From the NCBI GenBank assembly GCA_023150375.1, contig JAKLLA010000002.1, positions 124,001-188,000 of the forward strand: 64,000 bases of DNA. The letters are read 5' to 3'. The notes under the pieces were generated by a model, which had not been told where the DNA came from, searched no databases, and worked only from the letters and a program-made list of their open reading frames with translations. This DNA comes from Burkholderiaceae bacterium. Its GTDB lineage: Bacteria; Pseudomonadota; Gammaproteobacteria; Burkholderiales; Burkholderiaceae_C. This document shows, in pieces, positions 58,468 through 64,000 of this stretch (position 1 is its first letter; every line of letters starts with the position of its first letter). The position numbers and the translations under genes are program-made.

Positions 58468-59184
58468 ATGAGCCAAGCCGCCACCGACCGGCCCGCCCCG
58501 GCCGGCGCACGCAAACCCCCGCGCCGAACGGCCGAGCGCATCCTCGACCACACGCTGGAGCTGTTCAACCGCTACGGCGAGCCGAACGTCTCGACCACGC
58601 TGATCTCGGCCGAGCTCAGCATCAGCCCCGGCAACCTCTACTACCACTACCCGGCCAAGGAAGCGCTGGTCAACGCGCTGGTGGCGCGCTACGAACAGGC
58701 GCTGCAGCAGGCCCTGGACGCCGCCGGCCCGGCCGACGATGCCGAAGGCGCCTGGCTGCTGGTGCCGCGGCTGTTCCGCCTGGGCTGGGACTACCGCTTC
58801 CTGTTCCGCGACCTGAACGACCTGCTGACGCGCAACCGCCAGCTCGAGACCCGCTGCCAGGCCGCGCTCACCCAGCAGACCGCCGCGGTGCGCCAGCGCG
58901 TGGTGCGCCTGTGCGCAGTAGATGGCACCGCGCTGAACGACGAGGAGGCCGACGCCCTGGCCACCTCCATCGTCGTGCTGCTGAACTACTGGCTGAGCTT
59001 CGAGTACGTGCGCGACCCGCGCCGCGCCCTGGAGCCCGAGAACGCCGAAGCCGCGATGCGCCGCGGCGCGCGCCAGGTGCAGGCCCTGATCTGGCCCTAC
59101 CTCAGCGCCGAGCTGCGTCAGCGCCTGCGACCGACGCTGAGCGAGAACGAGCTCAAGCGCGGGAATGTGGCGCTGCGGGGGTGA
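58468..59184 (+). CDS. TetR-family transcriptional regulator
   Basis: The 238-residue protein has an N-terminal helix-turn-helix (RILDHTLELFNRYGEPNVST, SISPGNLYYHYPAKEAL; about 22-68) and a TetR-type all-helical C-terminal domain that binds a ligand. It belongs to the group with a long C-terminal domain found near lipid and transport genes. Divergent placement suggests that it regulates the ABC transporter operon and itself. The ligand is unknown. Confidence 0.9.
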   Translation: MSQAATDRPAPAGARKPPRRTAERILDHTLELFNRYGEPNVSTTLISAELSISPGNLYYHYPAKEALVNALVARYEQALQQALDAAGPADDAEGAWLLVPRLFRLGWDYRFLFRDLNDLLTRNRQLETRCQAALTQQTAAVRQRVVRLCAVDGTALNDEEADALATSIVVLLNYWLSFEYVRDPRRALEPENAEAAMRRGARQVQALIWPYLSAELRQRLRPTLSENELKRGNVALRG

Positions 59185-59209
59185 AGCCCGGATCCTGCCG
59201 TTCACAGAA

Positions 59210-59253: not shown

Positions 59254-59541
59254 ATGTCTGCGACCACCACCATCCGCCTGAACGACGACCTCAAGGCCCG
59301 GGTCACAGCCGCAGCTGAACGCCTGGGCACCACGGCCCACAACTTCATCCTCGAAGCGGTGGCGGAGAAGGCCGAACAGGAGGAACGCCGAGCAGAGTTC
59401 GAGGCGATCGCCACCGAGCGGCTGGCACGCGTTTCGCAGAGCGGTGAAACCGTGTCCTGGGCCGACATGCGCGACTGGCTGGAACGACGTTCGGCGGGAG
59501 AAGCCCCTGCCCGCCCCCAGCCGAAGCGCCGCGCCGGCTGA
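59254..59541 (+). CDS. Ribbon-helix-helix antitoxin
   Basis: The 95-residue protein starts MSATTTIRLNDDLKARVTAA, a typical ribbon-helix-helix DNA-binding segment, followed by a helix and a charged C-terminal region that would bind the toxin. A ggagg ribosome-binding site precedes the ATG. The toxin gene starts 13 bases after its stop. Confidence 0.82.
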   Translation: MSATTTIRLNDDLKARVTAAAERLGTTAHNFILEAVAEKAEQEERRAEFEAIATERLARVSQSGETVSWADMRDWLERRSAGEAPARPQPKRRAG

Positions 59542-59554
59542 CCCTGCCAACCCC

Positions 59555-59860
59555 ATGACCACGATCGACCTCGCGCCCGAGGTCGCCGAGGACTTCGAGC
59601 GCATCCTCGACCATCTGGTCACCCACGGCGTGGACGATGCCGCCGGGCGGATCCAGGACATCGTGGCGGCCATCGACGTGCTGCAGCGCAACCCCTGCAT
59701 CGGCCGCCCGATCGGCCGGCCTCCAACCGAGTTGCGCGAGCTGGTGATCGGACGCCGCAGCCGCGGCTATGTGGCGCTCTATGCCTACGATGCGCCGCAG
59801 GACCGGGTGCTGGTGCTGGCGATCCGGGGGCAGAAGGAGGCCGGGTACGCGCGGCTGTGA
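59555..59860 (+). CDS. RelE/ParE-family toxin
   Basis: The 101-residue protein starts MTTIDLAPEVAEDFERILDH and ends with ELVIGRRSRGYVALYAYD and VLVLAIRGQKEAGY, the pattern of ParE-like toxins (gyrase or ribosome-associated targets in the superfamily). I chose the ATG at 59555. Together with the antitoxin it forms a standard type II module at the border of the accessory region. Confidence 0.85.
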   Translation: MTTIDLAPEVAEDFERILDHLVTHGVDDAAGRIQDIVAAIDVLQRNPCIGRPIGRPPTELRELVIGRRSRGYVALYAYDAPQDRVLVLAIRGQKEAGYARL

Positions 59861-60020: not shown

Positions 60021-62912
60021 ATGGCACGGCCGTTGTTGACACCCCATCAGCGTCAGTACGTTGCCTGGCTGCTCACCCGGCGCGCCGGGGGCGACAGCGT
60101 AGAGTCGCTGGCCTCCACCCTGGTGGACTCCCAGGTGGACCTCAACCCGCATCAGGTGGAGGCCGCCCTCTTTGCCTGCAGCAATCCGCTGTCGCGCGGC
60201 GTCATCCTGGCCGACGAGGTCGGACTCGGCAAAACCATCGAGGCCGGGCTGGTGATTTCGCAGCGCTGGGCCGAACGCCGGCGGCGCATCCTGATCATCG
60301 TGCCCGCCAACCTGCGCAAGCAGTGGCACCAGGAGCTGCAGGACAAGTTCAGCCTGCAGGGTGTTCTGCTGGAGGCCAAGAGCTACAACGTGCTGCGCAA
60401 ACGGGACCGCCGCAGCCCGTTCCAAGGCGCCTCAGGCCCGGTCATCTGCTCGTACCAGTTCGCCAAGTCCAAGGCCGAGGACATCCGGGCCGTCGACTGG
60501 GACCTGGTCGTGCTGGACGAAGCCCACCGCCTGCGCAACGTCTACAAGACCAGCAACGTCATCGCCAAGACGCTGAAGGAGGCGCTGGCCCACGTCCACG
60601 CCAAGGTGCTGCTCACCGCGACGCCGCTGCAGAACTCGCTGCTGGAGCTGTACGGGCTGGTCAGCATGATCGACGACCGCGTGTTCGGCGACCTCGACAG
60701 CTTCCGCTCGCAGTTCACGGCGCAGCCGCGCGAACAGGCCTTCGCCGCGCTGCGCACCCGCCTGGCGCCGGTGTGCAAACGCACGCTGCGCCGCCAGGTG
60801 CAGCAGTACGTGCCCTACACCGCCCGCCGCGCCCTGGTGGAGGAGTTCACCCCAACCACCGAAGAGCGCGAGCTGTCCAGCCTGGTGGCCGACTACCTGC
60901 GCCGCCCCAACCTGAAGGCCCTGCCGGAAGGGCAGCGCCAGCTGATTTCCCTCGTGCTCTGGAAGCTGCTGGCCTCGTCCACGCATGCCATCGCCGGCGC
61001 CTTGGAGACCATGGCCAACCGACTGGAGGGGGAGCTCGCGGCGGCTCCCGACCTGCCGGATCTGACGGAGGTTCTGGACGACGACTACGAAGCGCTCGAC
61101 GAGACGGAAGAAGAGCGCGCCGAAGAAGGGGACCAGGGTGACAAGCGCGGATCGACGACGCCGGCTTCCACGGCCAGCCAGCGCGATGCCTTGGCGCAGG
61201 AAATCGCCGAGCTGCGCCATTTCAAGGCGCTGGCCAGCCGGATCCGCGAAAACGCCAAGGGCCGCGCGCTCCTGACCGCCCTGGACAAGGCTTTTGCCGA
61301 GCTGGCGCGGCTGGGCGCCGCCCGCAAGGCCATCATCTTCACCGAGTCCAAGCGCACACAGGCCTACCTGCTGACGCTGCTGGAGGGCACGGCCTACGGC
61401 GACGGCATCGTGCTGTTCAATGGCACCAACAGCGACGCCCGCGCCCAGTCCGTCTACCAGGACTGGCTGAAGCGCCACGCGGGCACGGACCGCATCACCG
61501 GCTCCAGGACCGCCGACACCCGCGCCGCTCTGGTGGAGCATTTCAAGGAACGCGGCACGGTGATGATCGCCACCGAGGCCGGTGCCGAGGGCATCAACCT
61601 GCAGTTCTGCTCGCTGGTCATCAACTACGACCTGCCCTGGAACCCGCAGCGCATCGAGCAGCGCATCGGCCGCTGCCACCGCTACGGCCAGAAGTTCGAC
61701 GTGGTGGTGGTCAACTTCGTCGACCGCAGCAACGAGGCCGACGCGCGGGTCTACGAGCTGCTGGCGGAGAAGTTCCAGCTCTTCGAGGGCGTCTTCGGCG
61801 CCAGCGACGAGGTGCTGGGCGCCATCGGCTCCGGCGTGGACTTCGAGCGGCGCATTGCCGAGATCTACCAGAACTGCCGTGAGCCGCAGGCCATCCGGGC
61901 CAGCTTTGAACAGTTGCAGCTCGACCTCTCCGGCGAGATCAACGAGGCGATGGTCCGCACGCGCCAGATCCTGCTGGAGAACTTCGACGAAGAAGTGCAG
62001 GACAAGCTGCGCGTGCGCGCCGAAGACAGCCGTGCCGCCCGCGGCAAGTACGAGCGCCTGCTGATGGACCTGACCGAAGCGGAGCTGGCCGACTGCGCCC
62101 GCTTCGACGAGCAGGGCTTCGTGCTCCACCGCAGCCCGGAGGCCGCCCCCGCTGGGGTCGAGCTGGGCCGCTACGAACTCCCCCGCCGTTCCGGCGACGC
62201 CCACCTCTACCGGATCGGCCACCCCCTGGCCCGCTGGATCGCCCAACAGGCCCAAGGCCGCGCCCTAGGCCCTGCACGGCTGGTGTTCGACTACGACGCC
62301 CATGGAACGCAGGTCAGCACACTCAAAGCCTACCGGGGCCAGACCGGCTGGTTGACCCTGAAACTCGTGTCGGTCGAAGCCCTGGGCGAACAGGAACAGC
62401 ACCTGATCGCCGCCGCCTGCACCTCGGCTGGCCAGGTGTTGGCAGAAGACGACCCGGCCAAACTGCTGCGCCTGCCCGCACATGAACAGCCGGCCGGCCT
62501 CTTCAGCGCGCCCGACGAGGTCCTCAGCGCCGATGTGGACGCCCGCAAGCGCGCCCTGCTGCAGGGCATCAACTTACGCAACCTCGGCTACTTCGACCAG
62601 GAAGTGCGCAAACTCGACGCCTGGGCGGACGACCTGAAGCTCGGCCTGGAGCAGGAGATCAAGGCCATCGACGCCGAGATCAAGGAAGTGCGCCGCACGG
62701 CAGCCACTTCACCCACACTCGAAGACAAACTGACCCACCAACGCCGCCAGCGTGAACTCGAAGGCCGGCGCAGCAAACTGCGCCGGGAGCTGTTTGCGCG
62801 GCAAGACGAAGTGGAAGCGGAACGCAACAGCTTGATTGCGCAACTGGAAAATCAACTGCAACAGCACGTCGTCGAGGACACGCTGTTTACCATTGAATGG
62901 GAGCTCGTCTAA
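60021..62912 (+). CDS. SNF2/RapA-like superfamily 2 helicase, probable defence component
   Basis: The 963-residue protein has a full SF2 ATPase core: LADEVGLGKTIEAGL (Walker A, about 63-77), VVLDEAHRLRN (DEAH 166-169), LLTATPLQNSLLEL (198-210), and motifs V-VI in IATEAGAEGINLQ and RIEQRIGRCHRYGQ. An acidic insertion lies near 355-395 and a coiled coil near 875-955. Such proteins are found in RapA/HepA roles and as helicases of defence systems, for example DISARM DrmD-like proteins. The ATG at 60021 has a ggagga site 10 bases upstream; ATG 59994 is an alternative. The stop codon overlaps the next start (TAATG), so it is coupled to the AIPR gene. Confidence 0.88.
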   Translation: MARPLLTPHQRQYVAWLLTRRAGGDSVESLASTLVDSQVDLNPHQVEAALFACSNPLSRGVILADEVGLGKTIEAGLVISQRWAERRRRILIIVPANLRKQWHQELQDKFSLQGVLLEAKSYNVLRKRDRRSPFQGASGPVICSYQFAKSKAEDIRAVDWDLVVLDEAHRLRNVYKTSNVIAKTLKEALAHVHAKVLLTATPLQNSLLELYGLVSMIDDRVFGDLDSFRSQFTAQPREQAFAALRTRLAPVCKRTLRRQVQQYVPYTARRALVEEFTPTTEERELSSLVADYLRRPNLKALPEGQRQLISLVLWKLLASSTHAIAGALETMANRLEGELAAAPDLPDLTEVLDDDYEALDETEEERAEEGDQGDKRGSTTPASTASQRDALAQEIAELRHFKALASRIRENAKGRALLTALDKAFAELARLGAARKAIIFTESKRTQAYLLTLLEGTAYGDGIVLFNGTNSDARAQSVYQDWLKRHAGTDRITGSRTADTRAALVEHFKERGTVMIATEAGAEGINLQFCSLVINYDLPWNPQRIEQRIGRCHRYGQKFDVVVVNFVDRSNEADARVYELLAEKFQLFEGVFGASDEVLGAIGSGVDFERRIAEIYQNCREPQAIRASFEQLQLDLSGEINEAMVRTRQILLENFDEEVQDKLRVRAEDSRAARGKYERLLMDLTEAELADCARFDEQGFVLHRSPEAAPAGVELGRYELPRRSGDAHLYRIGHPLARWIAQQAQGRALGPARLVFDYDAHGTQVSTLKAYRGQTGWLTLKLVSVEALGEQEQHLIAAACTSAGQVLAEDDPAKLLRLPAHEQPAGLFSAPDEVLSADVDARKRALLQGINLRNLGYFDQEVRKLDAWADDLKLGLEQEIKAIDAEIKEVRRTAATSPTLEDKLTHQRRQRELEGRRSKLRRELFARQDEVEAERNSLIAQLENQLQQHVVEDTLFTIEWELV

Positions 62913-64000
62913 TGGCTGCACTCGAACCTCAGTACATGGCCATACTGAAGAAGGTATTGACTGACCGCTTCGTGCCCTTTCTTCCCCCTCTACTCGACAA
63001 GACGAAACCAGCGAGCGAGCAACAAGCAAAACAACTTTCCCGCGCTTTCAGCGCTTTCACACTGCACAAGCTGCTCGACCTCGCACCCCAGGTTGCGGCA
63101 GCCGCTGTCGTCGATGACTTCAACGACAAGGGCATAGATGCCATCTACTACGACGCATCGGAAGAAACGCTCTACCTTCTACAAACAAAACTAAAGGAAT
63201 CTGAGCAATTCAAACAAGAAGATGCACTTCCATTCTGCGAAGGTGTTCGACTTCTGCTCAAGCAGGATTTTTCCAGCTTCAACAAGAACGTCATCGACCG
63301 AAAGGCAGATATCGAGGGCGCTTTGGATGCCTGCAGCTACATCAAGCTCGTGGTGCCCTACACAGGCGATGGCATTTCGAAGACCGCGAGCGACGCATTG
63401 CAGTCGCTTCTCGATGACAAGGACTTAGACGAAGAGCGACTCGTAAAGCCGGTGGAATACTACACGGCAACCGAAATCGTCCAACACCTGCTGGCGGAAC
63501 GCGCCTATCAGCCGGTGCACACGGACATTACCCTCCAGAAGCACGAGAAGGTCGAGACGCCACGAACCACTTACTTCGGCATCGCAAAGCTGGCCGATCT
63601 GGTTGCACTGCACCAAGACAAAGGCAAAGCGCTCTACGAGCGCAACATCCGCTACTTCCTCGGCGGTCGCTCGGATGTCAACAAGGCGATCAAGACGACT
63701 CTGCGGGACGACCCGGGTAGCTTCTTCTACCTCAACAACGGCGTCACGGCTGTCTGCGACGAGATTGATCAGAAGGGCAAGAATCCGAGCAACGGATTCA
63801 GGAAATTCAAGGTGCGCGGCCTGTCCATCATCAACGGCGCTCAGACCATCGCCTCGGCAGCGGAGTTCATGGCCCAGCACCCTGGTCACAGCATCGACGA
63901 TGCCAAGGTCATGCTCACGCTGATCAAAGCTCCAGCAGACGGCCCCTTTGGCAAGCGAGTGACCAAGGCCCGCAACCACCAGAACCCGGTGCAGGCGGCC
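62912..64000 (+). CDS. AIPR-family protein, 3' end cut by window edge
   Basis: The first 363 codons are present with no stop. Residues 243-311 match the AIPR (abortive infection phage resistance) pattern: YERNIRYFLGG, VNKAIKTTL, FFYLNNGVTAV and LSIINGAQTIAS. Near the N-terminus, GIDAIYYDASEETLYLLQTK (74-93) resembles a PD-(D/E)XK nuclease core, with Asp76 and Gln91-x-Lys93. Base composition is far lower in GC than the neighbours (22 of 60 at 63181-63240), a sign of transfer. Its ATG overlaps the helicase stop by one base. A role in phage defence is inferred from family and context. Confidence 0.85.
   Translation, partial: MAALEPQYMAILKKVLTDRFVPFLPPLLDKTKPASEQQAKQLSRAFSAFTLHKLLDLAPQVAAAAVVDDFNDKGIDAIYYDASEETLYLLQTKLKESEQFKQEDALPFCEGVRLLLKQDFSSFNKNVIDRKADIEGALDACSYIKLVVPYTGDGISKTASDALQSLLDDKDLDEERLVKPVEYYTATEIVQHLLAERAYQPVHTDITLQKHEKVETPRTTYFGIAKLADLVALHQDKGKALYERNIRYFLGGRSDVNKAIKTTLRDDPGSFFYLNNGVTAVCDEIDQKGKNPSNGFRKFKVRGLSIINGAQTIASAAEFMAQHPGHSIDDAKVMLTLIKAPADGPFGKRVTKARNHQNPVQAA

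Follow-up and report, generated by a model that had tools for sequence, protein, structure and literature searches.

Background

Type III restriction-modification (RM) enzymes are represented by EcoP15I, which is described in the available part of PMC4490356 as composed of Mod and Res subunits only; the same text states that enzymes of this type require two inverted sites and diffusion over long distances in one dimension. Linkage of AIPR genes to RM loci has been read as the coupling of immunity to suicide, and AIPR itself as an abortive infection protein (PMC3506569, in the portion of the text accessible). Related Snf2 helicases are reported from BREX type 3, Hma/BREX-related (Hma/BR) systems and ARMADA (excerpts of PMC12839542 and PMC12458937), the role of the helicase DrmD in DISARM was left to future work in the accessible text of PMC9142583, and an interaction between a SNF2/RAD54 helicase and the RM enzyme Pin17FIII was a guess in the available part of PMC5608340. 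Here we examine a locus at the end of a 64,000-nucleotide stretch of DNA from a Burkholderiaceae bacterium (G000:C13:124001-188000; hereafter the window, meaning the whole stretch), where a SNF2 helicase gene overlaps an AIPR gene; the downstream DNA was read in locus L002 (window coordinate = L002 coordinate + 53999). An earlier note on the window had suggested that the two genes might constitute a variant or separate two-protein phage defence system. We find that they open a tight five-gene operon, SNF2-AIPR-Mod-YhcG-Res, which is probably a type III RM operon equipped with its own SNF2 helicase and carrying two cargo genes.

A type III operon with a helicase gene in front

The operon comprises the following genes, in window coordinates (aa, amino acids):

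60021..62912, forward strand: gene 1, DrmD/RapA-like SNF2 helicase, 963 aa (Pfam SNF2-rel_dom 9.4e-37, Helicase_C 3.4e-21)
62912..64732 (window part 62912..64000), forward strand: gene 2, in slot 1, AIPR, 606 aa (Pfam AIPR 3.1e-36)
64743-66476 (L002:10744-12477): gene 3, type III Mod (PADLOC MTase_III 2.4e-218)
66473-67549 (L002:12474-13550): gene 4, YhcG/DUF1016 PD-(D/E)XK protein (Pfam YhcG_C 5.8e-62, DUF1016_N 1.3e-40)
67546-70344 (L002:13547-16345): gene 5, type III Res (PADLOC REase_III 1.3e-207)

The helicase gene starts with the ATG at 60021, with GGAGGA 10 bases 5' of it, and its stop codon TAA (62910-62912) has one base in common with the AIPR start codon (ATG at 62912), giving the TAATG overlap that the earlier note described. 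The remaining junctions are a 10-bp gap (AIPR/Mod) and two ATGA overlaps (Mod/YhcG and YhcG/Res). It was also correctly noted that the window ends inside the AIPR gene, which runs on to 64732, and that no methylase is visible; the latter is true of the window itself, which stops before Mod, a gene that begins at 64743 just beyond its end. Reading on downstream revealed a type III mod-res pair in the same operon, a result that speaks against a two-protein system. The earlier observation was right, its subject being the front end of a type III operon, and its interpretation is partly supported.

Several features identify the downstream pair as type III. Mod matches Pfam N6_N4_Mtase (3.8e-43) and EcoP15I Mod in the PDB (4.7e-89), and its DPPYNTG motif is located before FAGSGTT (P0003), an order that we take to be the beta-class N6-adenine methyltransferase arrangement. 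As in type III enzymes, this methyltransferase has an internal target-recognition region: when it is compared with Mod of G001, a genome of the same genus, the ends align well and the middle differs. Res matches Pfam ResIII (2.3e-22) and, over its motor part, EcoP15I Res in the PDB (2.1e-53). It combines a superfamily 2 (SF2) motor with a PD-(D/E)XK nuclease, again as expected of type III, with P844, D845, E858 and K860 invariant in an alignment of 13 rows; the match to Pfam RE_endonuc is only weak, at 16.1 bits where the cutoff is 23.4. Finally, mod and res lie in one operon, with YhcG inserted between them by way of the ATGA overlaps. Res of a third kind, with 18-19% identity to that of the window, goes with the same helicase family in L015, L016 and L020.

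The helicase and its near-constant partners

The motifs of the window helicase are intact. Its nearest named family is DrmD of DISARM (PADLOC model PDLC02619, 9.8e-194), and RapA is the closest solved protein to it in both sequence and fold. Against NCBIfam DrmD_b it scores 650.6 bits, below the curated cutoff of 950 (a further comparison gave 255 against 610 bits), and under one model it reaches 644 bits, against 1448 for the DISARM DrmD of L092. A sister subfamily is DISARM DrmD, which in L092 stands beside DrmMII, DrmA and DrmB. The defence context and DISARM-like helicase recognised in the earlier note are borne out. The DISARM genes of L092 (L092:2232-16256; DrmMII, DrmD, DrmA, DrmB) follow a type III-like methyltransferase and a 962-aa protein without a PADLOC match. 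Tree labels of the helicase cover 13 phyla and one Patescibacteria bin, to which a Deinococcus plasmid adds one, many of the rows being metagenome bins.

A tblastn search of plasmids with the helicase matched 854 records, and in 11/11 loci examined among the 40 matches listed SNF2, Mod and Res follow one another in this order on one strand, with intervening genes in some and with Mod of L019 interrupted by insertion sequences. A search with 12 helicases yielded 80 genome loci (the best 80 of at least 567) and 71 viral-contig loci. We treated a locus as informative where the helicase scored at least 1000 bits and at least 8 kb of downstream flank was present, plasmids included (n = 82; the near-duplicates L120 and L125 of L052 and L121 are counted here and excluded from the tree, slot and co-divergence comparisons). 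Mod and Res are present on the same strand in 76 of these 82 loci, two of the 76 having the order Mod-Res-SNF2; the remaining six are L053, L091 (Mod present, Res absent from the stretch), L098, L104, L144 and L145. Among loci of at least 1000 bits with shorter flanks (n = 33), Mod is visible in 20. Weaker helicases have Mod and Res beside them in 3/9 loci at 600-1000 bits, 0/1 at 300-600 bits and 0/15 below 300 bits, while two of the 162 loci (L171, L174) lack a helicase profile match and fall in no bin. As the ranking of loci rested on similarity to helicases from such operons, the rate of 76/82 holds for that subfamily only.

Some further observations concern these loci. The order Mod-Res-SNF2 occurs in L071, L082 and L132 (Lonepinella, Schaalia and one viral contig), many helicase-Mod-Res loci (L105-L150) lie on IMG/VR contigs classed as viral, and decaying helicase loci are seen in L104 (AIPR also broken), L145 and L272 (Res in pieces).

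An unselected census of genomes from the class, in which profile searches scored mostly two candidates per genome, detected the helicase at E<=1e-100 in 22 of 369 genomes. In 14 of these genomes, among them G369, where helicase and Res are both in pieces, a Res profile match shares the contig and strand of the helicase and is separated from it by no more than about 8 kb. Four contigs show Mod and then end (G362, G199, G299, G238), and four end at the helicase or no more than 3.5 kb beyond it (G136, G222, G169 and G313, the helicase of the last being split). Mod and/or Res consequently adjoin the helicase in 18/22 genomes, the other four contigs ending too soon, and no clear counter-example is found among the 22. 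In the reverse direction, 19 genomes have Res of the window type (at least 850 bits), and the helicase is missing at E<=1e-100 from 8 of these. Judging from gene content, the helicase hardly does without Mod-Res, and Mod-Res can do without the helicase, given 18/22 in one direction and 8/19 helicase-free Res genomes in the other.

The co-divergence of the three proteins was compared by Spearman correlation of distances, no value being reached by more than 6 of 500 permutations. Correlations for SNF2-Mod, SNF2-Res and Mod-Res, respectively, are 0.23, 0.28 and 0.86 in 45 short-form loci, 0.44, 0.57 and 0.82 in 30 long-form loci, and 0.31, 0.43 and 0.80 in 24 window-type loci. The branching of the helicase tree follows the form of Mod, with 4 changes over 94 rows. 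Apparent partner swaps, in which the Mod form is unlike that of the clade, are seen in L017/L036, L056 and L040.

AIPR and other exchangeable cargo

The AIPR domain scores 126.1 bits against a Pfam gathering score of 25 (PF10592). The N-terminus of the protein has a Mrr-like PD-(D/E)XK pattern, with the modification-dependent enzyme AspBHI as its best fold match; a whole-protein Foldseek search with the AIPR model returned nothing at E<=0.001, and no HEPN protein is named among the listed fold matches of the N-terminus, which does not exclude HEPN. An intact AIPR accompanies the helicase in 6/82 informative loci, and a broken one in one more (L104). Since Mod-Res is present in 76/82 and intact AIPR in 6/82, it is with Mod-Res, and not with AIPR, that the helicase is partnered. 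Moreover, a search led by AIPR found the helicase in 1/78 viral-contig loci, with flanks of up to 10 kb, such that co-occurrence of the two families proves rare from either side.

Eight helicase loci carry AIPR (L014, L025, L026, L029, L030, L036, L107, L104), and seven of these have Mod and Res as well, the remaining one being L104, where SNF2 and AIPR are broken and no Mod/Res match appears; the helicase-AIPR loci of the window and G010 also carry Mod and Res. On the helicase tree AIPR is found in 8/94 rows (not an unbiased rate, as rows were picked for having Mod), with at least 4 changes. It is clustered there, and would therefore be kept for some time once gained. Of 60 related genomes, 7 have an AIPR relative, counting that of the window. 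In G010 it adjoins the helicase, in G004 and G009 it occurs without a helicase, and the remaining three are G016, G030 and G039. By these comparisons AIPR is one of many exchangeable cargo genes.

Slot 1, defined as a SNF2-to-Mod gap of more than 250 bp, is filled in 51/97 loci. We scanned 67 proteins from it (78 open reading frames (ORFs) of at least 100 aa, minus one transposase, four minus-strand ORFs and seven of L091, 12 in total, plus the full L107 AIPR), and 21 proteins from slot 2 (21 ORFs minus one on the minus strand, plus YhcG of the window). The most frequent Pfam matches in slot 1 are to SMC_N (13), AAA_21 (12), AAA_15 (12), AAA_23 (10), AIPR (7), SLFN_AlbA_2 (5) and DUF4276 (4), and more rarely to Abi_2, Fic and SIR2 (2 each) and one kinase. 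PADLOC models with several matches include mad3, AbiU, AriA, NsnB, HEC-01A, AbiLi, LmuB, GajA and PtuA, many of which are models of ATPases that overlap one another. Slot 2 most commonly holds RhuM (5), with YhcG, DUF4276, GmrSD and AAA domains at 2 each. A pair of AAA and DUF4276 genes occupies slot 1 in L019, L028 and L076 and slot 2 in L022 and L055. Proteins of the Abi, SIR2, Fic and kinase families often act in cell shutdown.

The slots are not a feature specific to helicase operons, as mod-res loci lacking SNF2 bear comparable genes in or near the same places: IetS (L265, L269), a LmuB-like ATPase (L262) and PDC-S02 (L264). The IetS-type genes (PADLOC 854 and 1077 bits) abut the 5' side of mod in L269 (G195) and lie two ORFs away in L265 (G386).

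Exchange is evident within the genus. G001 has an operon at another site in which SNF2 is 81%, Res 83% and Mod 54% identical to the window's, a 1035-aa SMC/AAA_21 protein replaces AIPR, and YhcG is absent. DNA of the two operons aligns in the segments 60037-62914, 64749-65113, 65727-66343 and 67544-70304, with breaks between them, the differing parts being AIPR, the middle of Mod and YhcG. The operon of G010 reads SNF2-AIPR (29%)-Mod-RhuM-Res. That cargo and specificity region are exchanged between helicase and Res genes of 81-83% identity shows restriction operons trading effectors.

The inserted block and its surroundings

Features around the operon, in window coordinates, are as follows:

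59185-70363 (to L002:16364), 11.2 kb: inserted block, from DNA alignment to the closest relative G012
59254..59541, forward strand: RHH-type antitoxin-like gene (Pfam RHH_1 4.8e-4, 20.4 bits, just below the cutoff of 20.5)
59555..59860, forward strand: ParE-like toxin gene (Pfam ParE_toxin 7.8e-9)

The block lies between convergent genes for TetR (58468-59184) and RecG (stop end at 70370), the latter on the opposite strand and adjoining the Res end of the operon. The closest relative, G012, has an empty site with 18 bp between the aligned flanks; its TetR and RecG are 94% identical to those of the window, the two matches being 30 bp apart. The block was therefore acquired horizontally, in agreement with the acquired island proposed in the earlier note. 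The block's predicted genes include no match to an integrase or transposase.

TetR and RecG matches are no more than 50 bp apart in 5 of the 12 other genomes of the genus (G007, G009, G010, G011, G012), about 0.6 kb apart in G005, about 1.9 kb in G004 and 3.6-11.4 kb in four (G001, G003, G008, G002), and are on different contigs in G006. The gap (window 59184-59185) is thus filled by other DNA in those four genomes. A defence hotspot at this site is unsupported: six gap genes were scanned, with G008 contributing three, G003 two, G001 one and G002 none, and they comprise genes for a GyrI-like protein, a regulator of the LysR family and a transposase of the IS1595 type, a further gene with sub-cutoff matches only and two without matches.

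The toxin-antitoxin pair of RHH/ParE type does precede the helicase as reported. Neither gene has a relative at E<=1e-4 elsewhere, the antitoxin across loci L014-L286 and the toxin in the other loci compared, the sole match of each being its own locus L274. The pair was consequently rejected as a part of the operon, from which the antitoxin-like gene is apparently separate.

The reported drop in guanine-cytosine (GC) content after 62.9 kb is real: the penultimate 1-kb bin of the window has a value of 0.651 and the final one 0.561. It falls inside the operon and does not mark the edge of an island, since the block begins at 59185. By gene, GC is 0.671 for SNF2, 0.549 for AIPR, 0.575 for Mod, 0.659 for YhcG and 0.656 for Res, with third-position minima in AIPR and the middle of Mod.

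Proposed function and alternative explanations

Under the reading of a type III operon with a dedicated helicase, Mod, as an EcoP15I-like N6-adenine methyltransferase, would recognise and methylate the target site, and Res, with its SF2 motor and C-terminal PD-(D/E)XK nuclease, would cleave DNA that lacks methylation. The SNF2 protein would most likely be an ATP-driven double-strand DNA translocase that aids the Mod-Res complex on occupied DNA. As a tentative refinement, it may clear bound proteins so that sliding Mod-Res complexes meet; given the dependence of type III enzymes on paired inverted sites and long-range one-dimensional diffusion, a translocase stripping obstacles would help in the cell. 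AIPR (a predicted Mrr-like PD-(D/E)XK nuclease) and YhcG (another putative PD-(D/E)XK nuclease) may be interchangeable back-up effectors, plausibly fired when restriction is blocked or failing, as PrrC is in EcoprrI. Gene content and order, homologies, the empty site, the steadiness of the helicase-Mod-Res link and the variability of cargo and Mod specificity region are seen in the sequences themselves; we infer all activities, the translocase role and the back-up trigger, the last by analogy with the published idea for AIPR and the precedent of PrrC (available parts of PMC3506569 and PMC12707154).

A type III mod-res pair is a known system, and canonical type III does not itself account for the SNF2 gene; that part of the earlier lead therefore stands. 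More broadly, we see an even chance that a widespread type III lineage, spanning at least 14 bacterial phyla, is three-component, with a DrmD-like SNF2 translocase integral to Mod-Res and a sister helicase in use by DISARM, and that its operons form a two-slot chassis with a switchable specificity region, in which back-up effectors like AIPR are swapped as cassettes. A helicase subfamily that is nearly always beside a simple Mod-Res would provide a small system for asking what SNF2 motors do in methylation-based defence.

Several alternative hypotheses may be considered. AIPR might be a second direct restriction nuclease that acts beside Res on invading, perhaps modified, DNA, and not a suicide effector. 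This would fit the Mrr-like N-terminus and its match to AspBHI, but we regard it as rather doubtful, as Abi, SIR2, Fic and kinase families are among the occupants of the slot elsewhere and the published reading of AIPR is one of abortive infection (PMC3506569, in the part available).

It is unlikely, too, that the SNF2 protein stands outside the restriction machinery as a helper or regulator of operon transcription, by analogy with the recycling of RNA polymerase by RapA. Its closeness to RapA would suit such a role, as would the loose co-divergence of helicase and Res and a small helix-turn-helix gene 5' of the helicase in 6/11 plasmid loci examined. However, a sister subfamily is a DISARM component, and there are relatives in BREX type 3, Hma/BR and ARMADA (PMC12839542, PMC12458937, in excerpt), such that SNF2 helicases recur across methylation-based defences.

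That SNF2 and AIPR form a two-protein defence system of their own, merely adjoining an RM locus, is very improbable. The TAATG overlap would favour it, and AIPR lies directly 3' of SNF2 also in L026, L029, L030, L107, the Deinococcus locus L014 and G010 of the same genus. Yet the helicase keeps Mod-Res far more often than AIPR, 77/78 viral-contig loci have AIPR relatives without the helicase, the two genes are separated by a 1032-aa ATPase in L025 and a 316-aa AbiD-like gene in L036, and the pair was not met without RM genes among the eight loci apart from broken L104. Co-occurrence thus rejects the pair as a new two-gene system and, as it is not one, it would carry no significance as such.

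Least credible is a degenerate or hybrid DISARM, which the DrmD matches invite and which the sub-cutoff scores and gene content oppose, no DrmA, DrmB or DrmC being present among the island genes (the rest of the genome was not searched).

Comparison with known systems

With DISARM the locus shares a helicase whose nearest named family is DrmD. It differs in that this helicase falls below the curated cutoff, and in that DrmA, DrmB and DrmC are absent from the listed Pfam and PADLOC matches of the island genes (YhcG was not in the PADLOC scan). Hma/DUF499 BREX-related systems and ARMADA likewise possess a Snf2 helicase resembling RapA together with a DNA methyltransferase (PMC12839542, PMC12458937, in the portions available), whereas the island has Mod and Res in place of a DUF499 ATPase or YprA-type helicase; an assignment to Hma/BR was rejected, as no DUF499 occurs among the Pfam matches of its genes.

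Links of AIPR to RM systems, and to type III in particular, are already published (PMC3506569 and PMC2292703, in the available text). The AIPR of the accessible part of PMC3506569 has an N-terminal HEPN RNase, in contrast to the PD-(D/E)XK-like pattern of the window's, and a constant SNF2 partner is unmentioned in the available parts of both accounts. The embedding of a back-up effector gene in an RM locus has a parallel in PrrC of the type I locus ecoprrI (PMC12707154, in part), although that effector is a tRNA nuclease and its host locus is type I, and here AIPR lies in a type III operon. Pin17FIII of Prevotella intermedia offers a further parallel, a SNF2/RAD54 helicase gene lying 5' of an N6-methyladenine restriction system; that system is type IIG and not a type III mod-res, and no type III system is reported in the available text (PMC5608340). 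A system joining SNF2 to type III mod-res was not found among the matches listed, from open-access literature only; the AIPR-RM link is already known, and a near-constant SNF2 partner of type III mod-res was not found in the open-access literature searched.

Among the closest described systems is EcoP15I (Mod2Res1), with which the locus shares homologous Mod and Res proteins, a mod gene before res in one operon and a variable middle of Mod. It departs from that enzyme, described as Mod and Res only, by an extra SNF2 gene in front and by the nested AIPR and YhcG genes.

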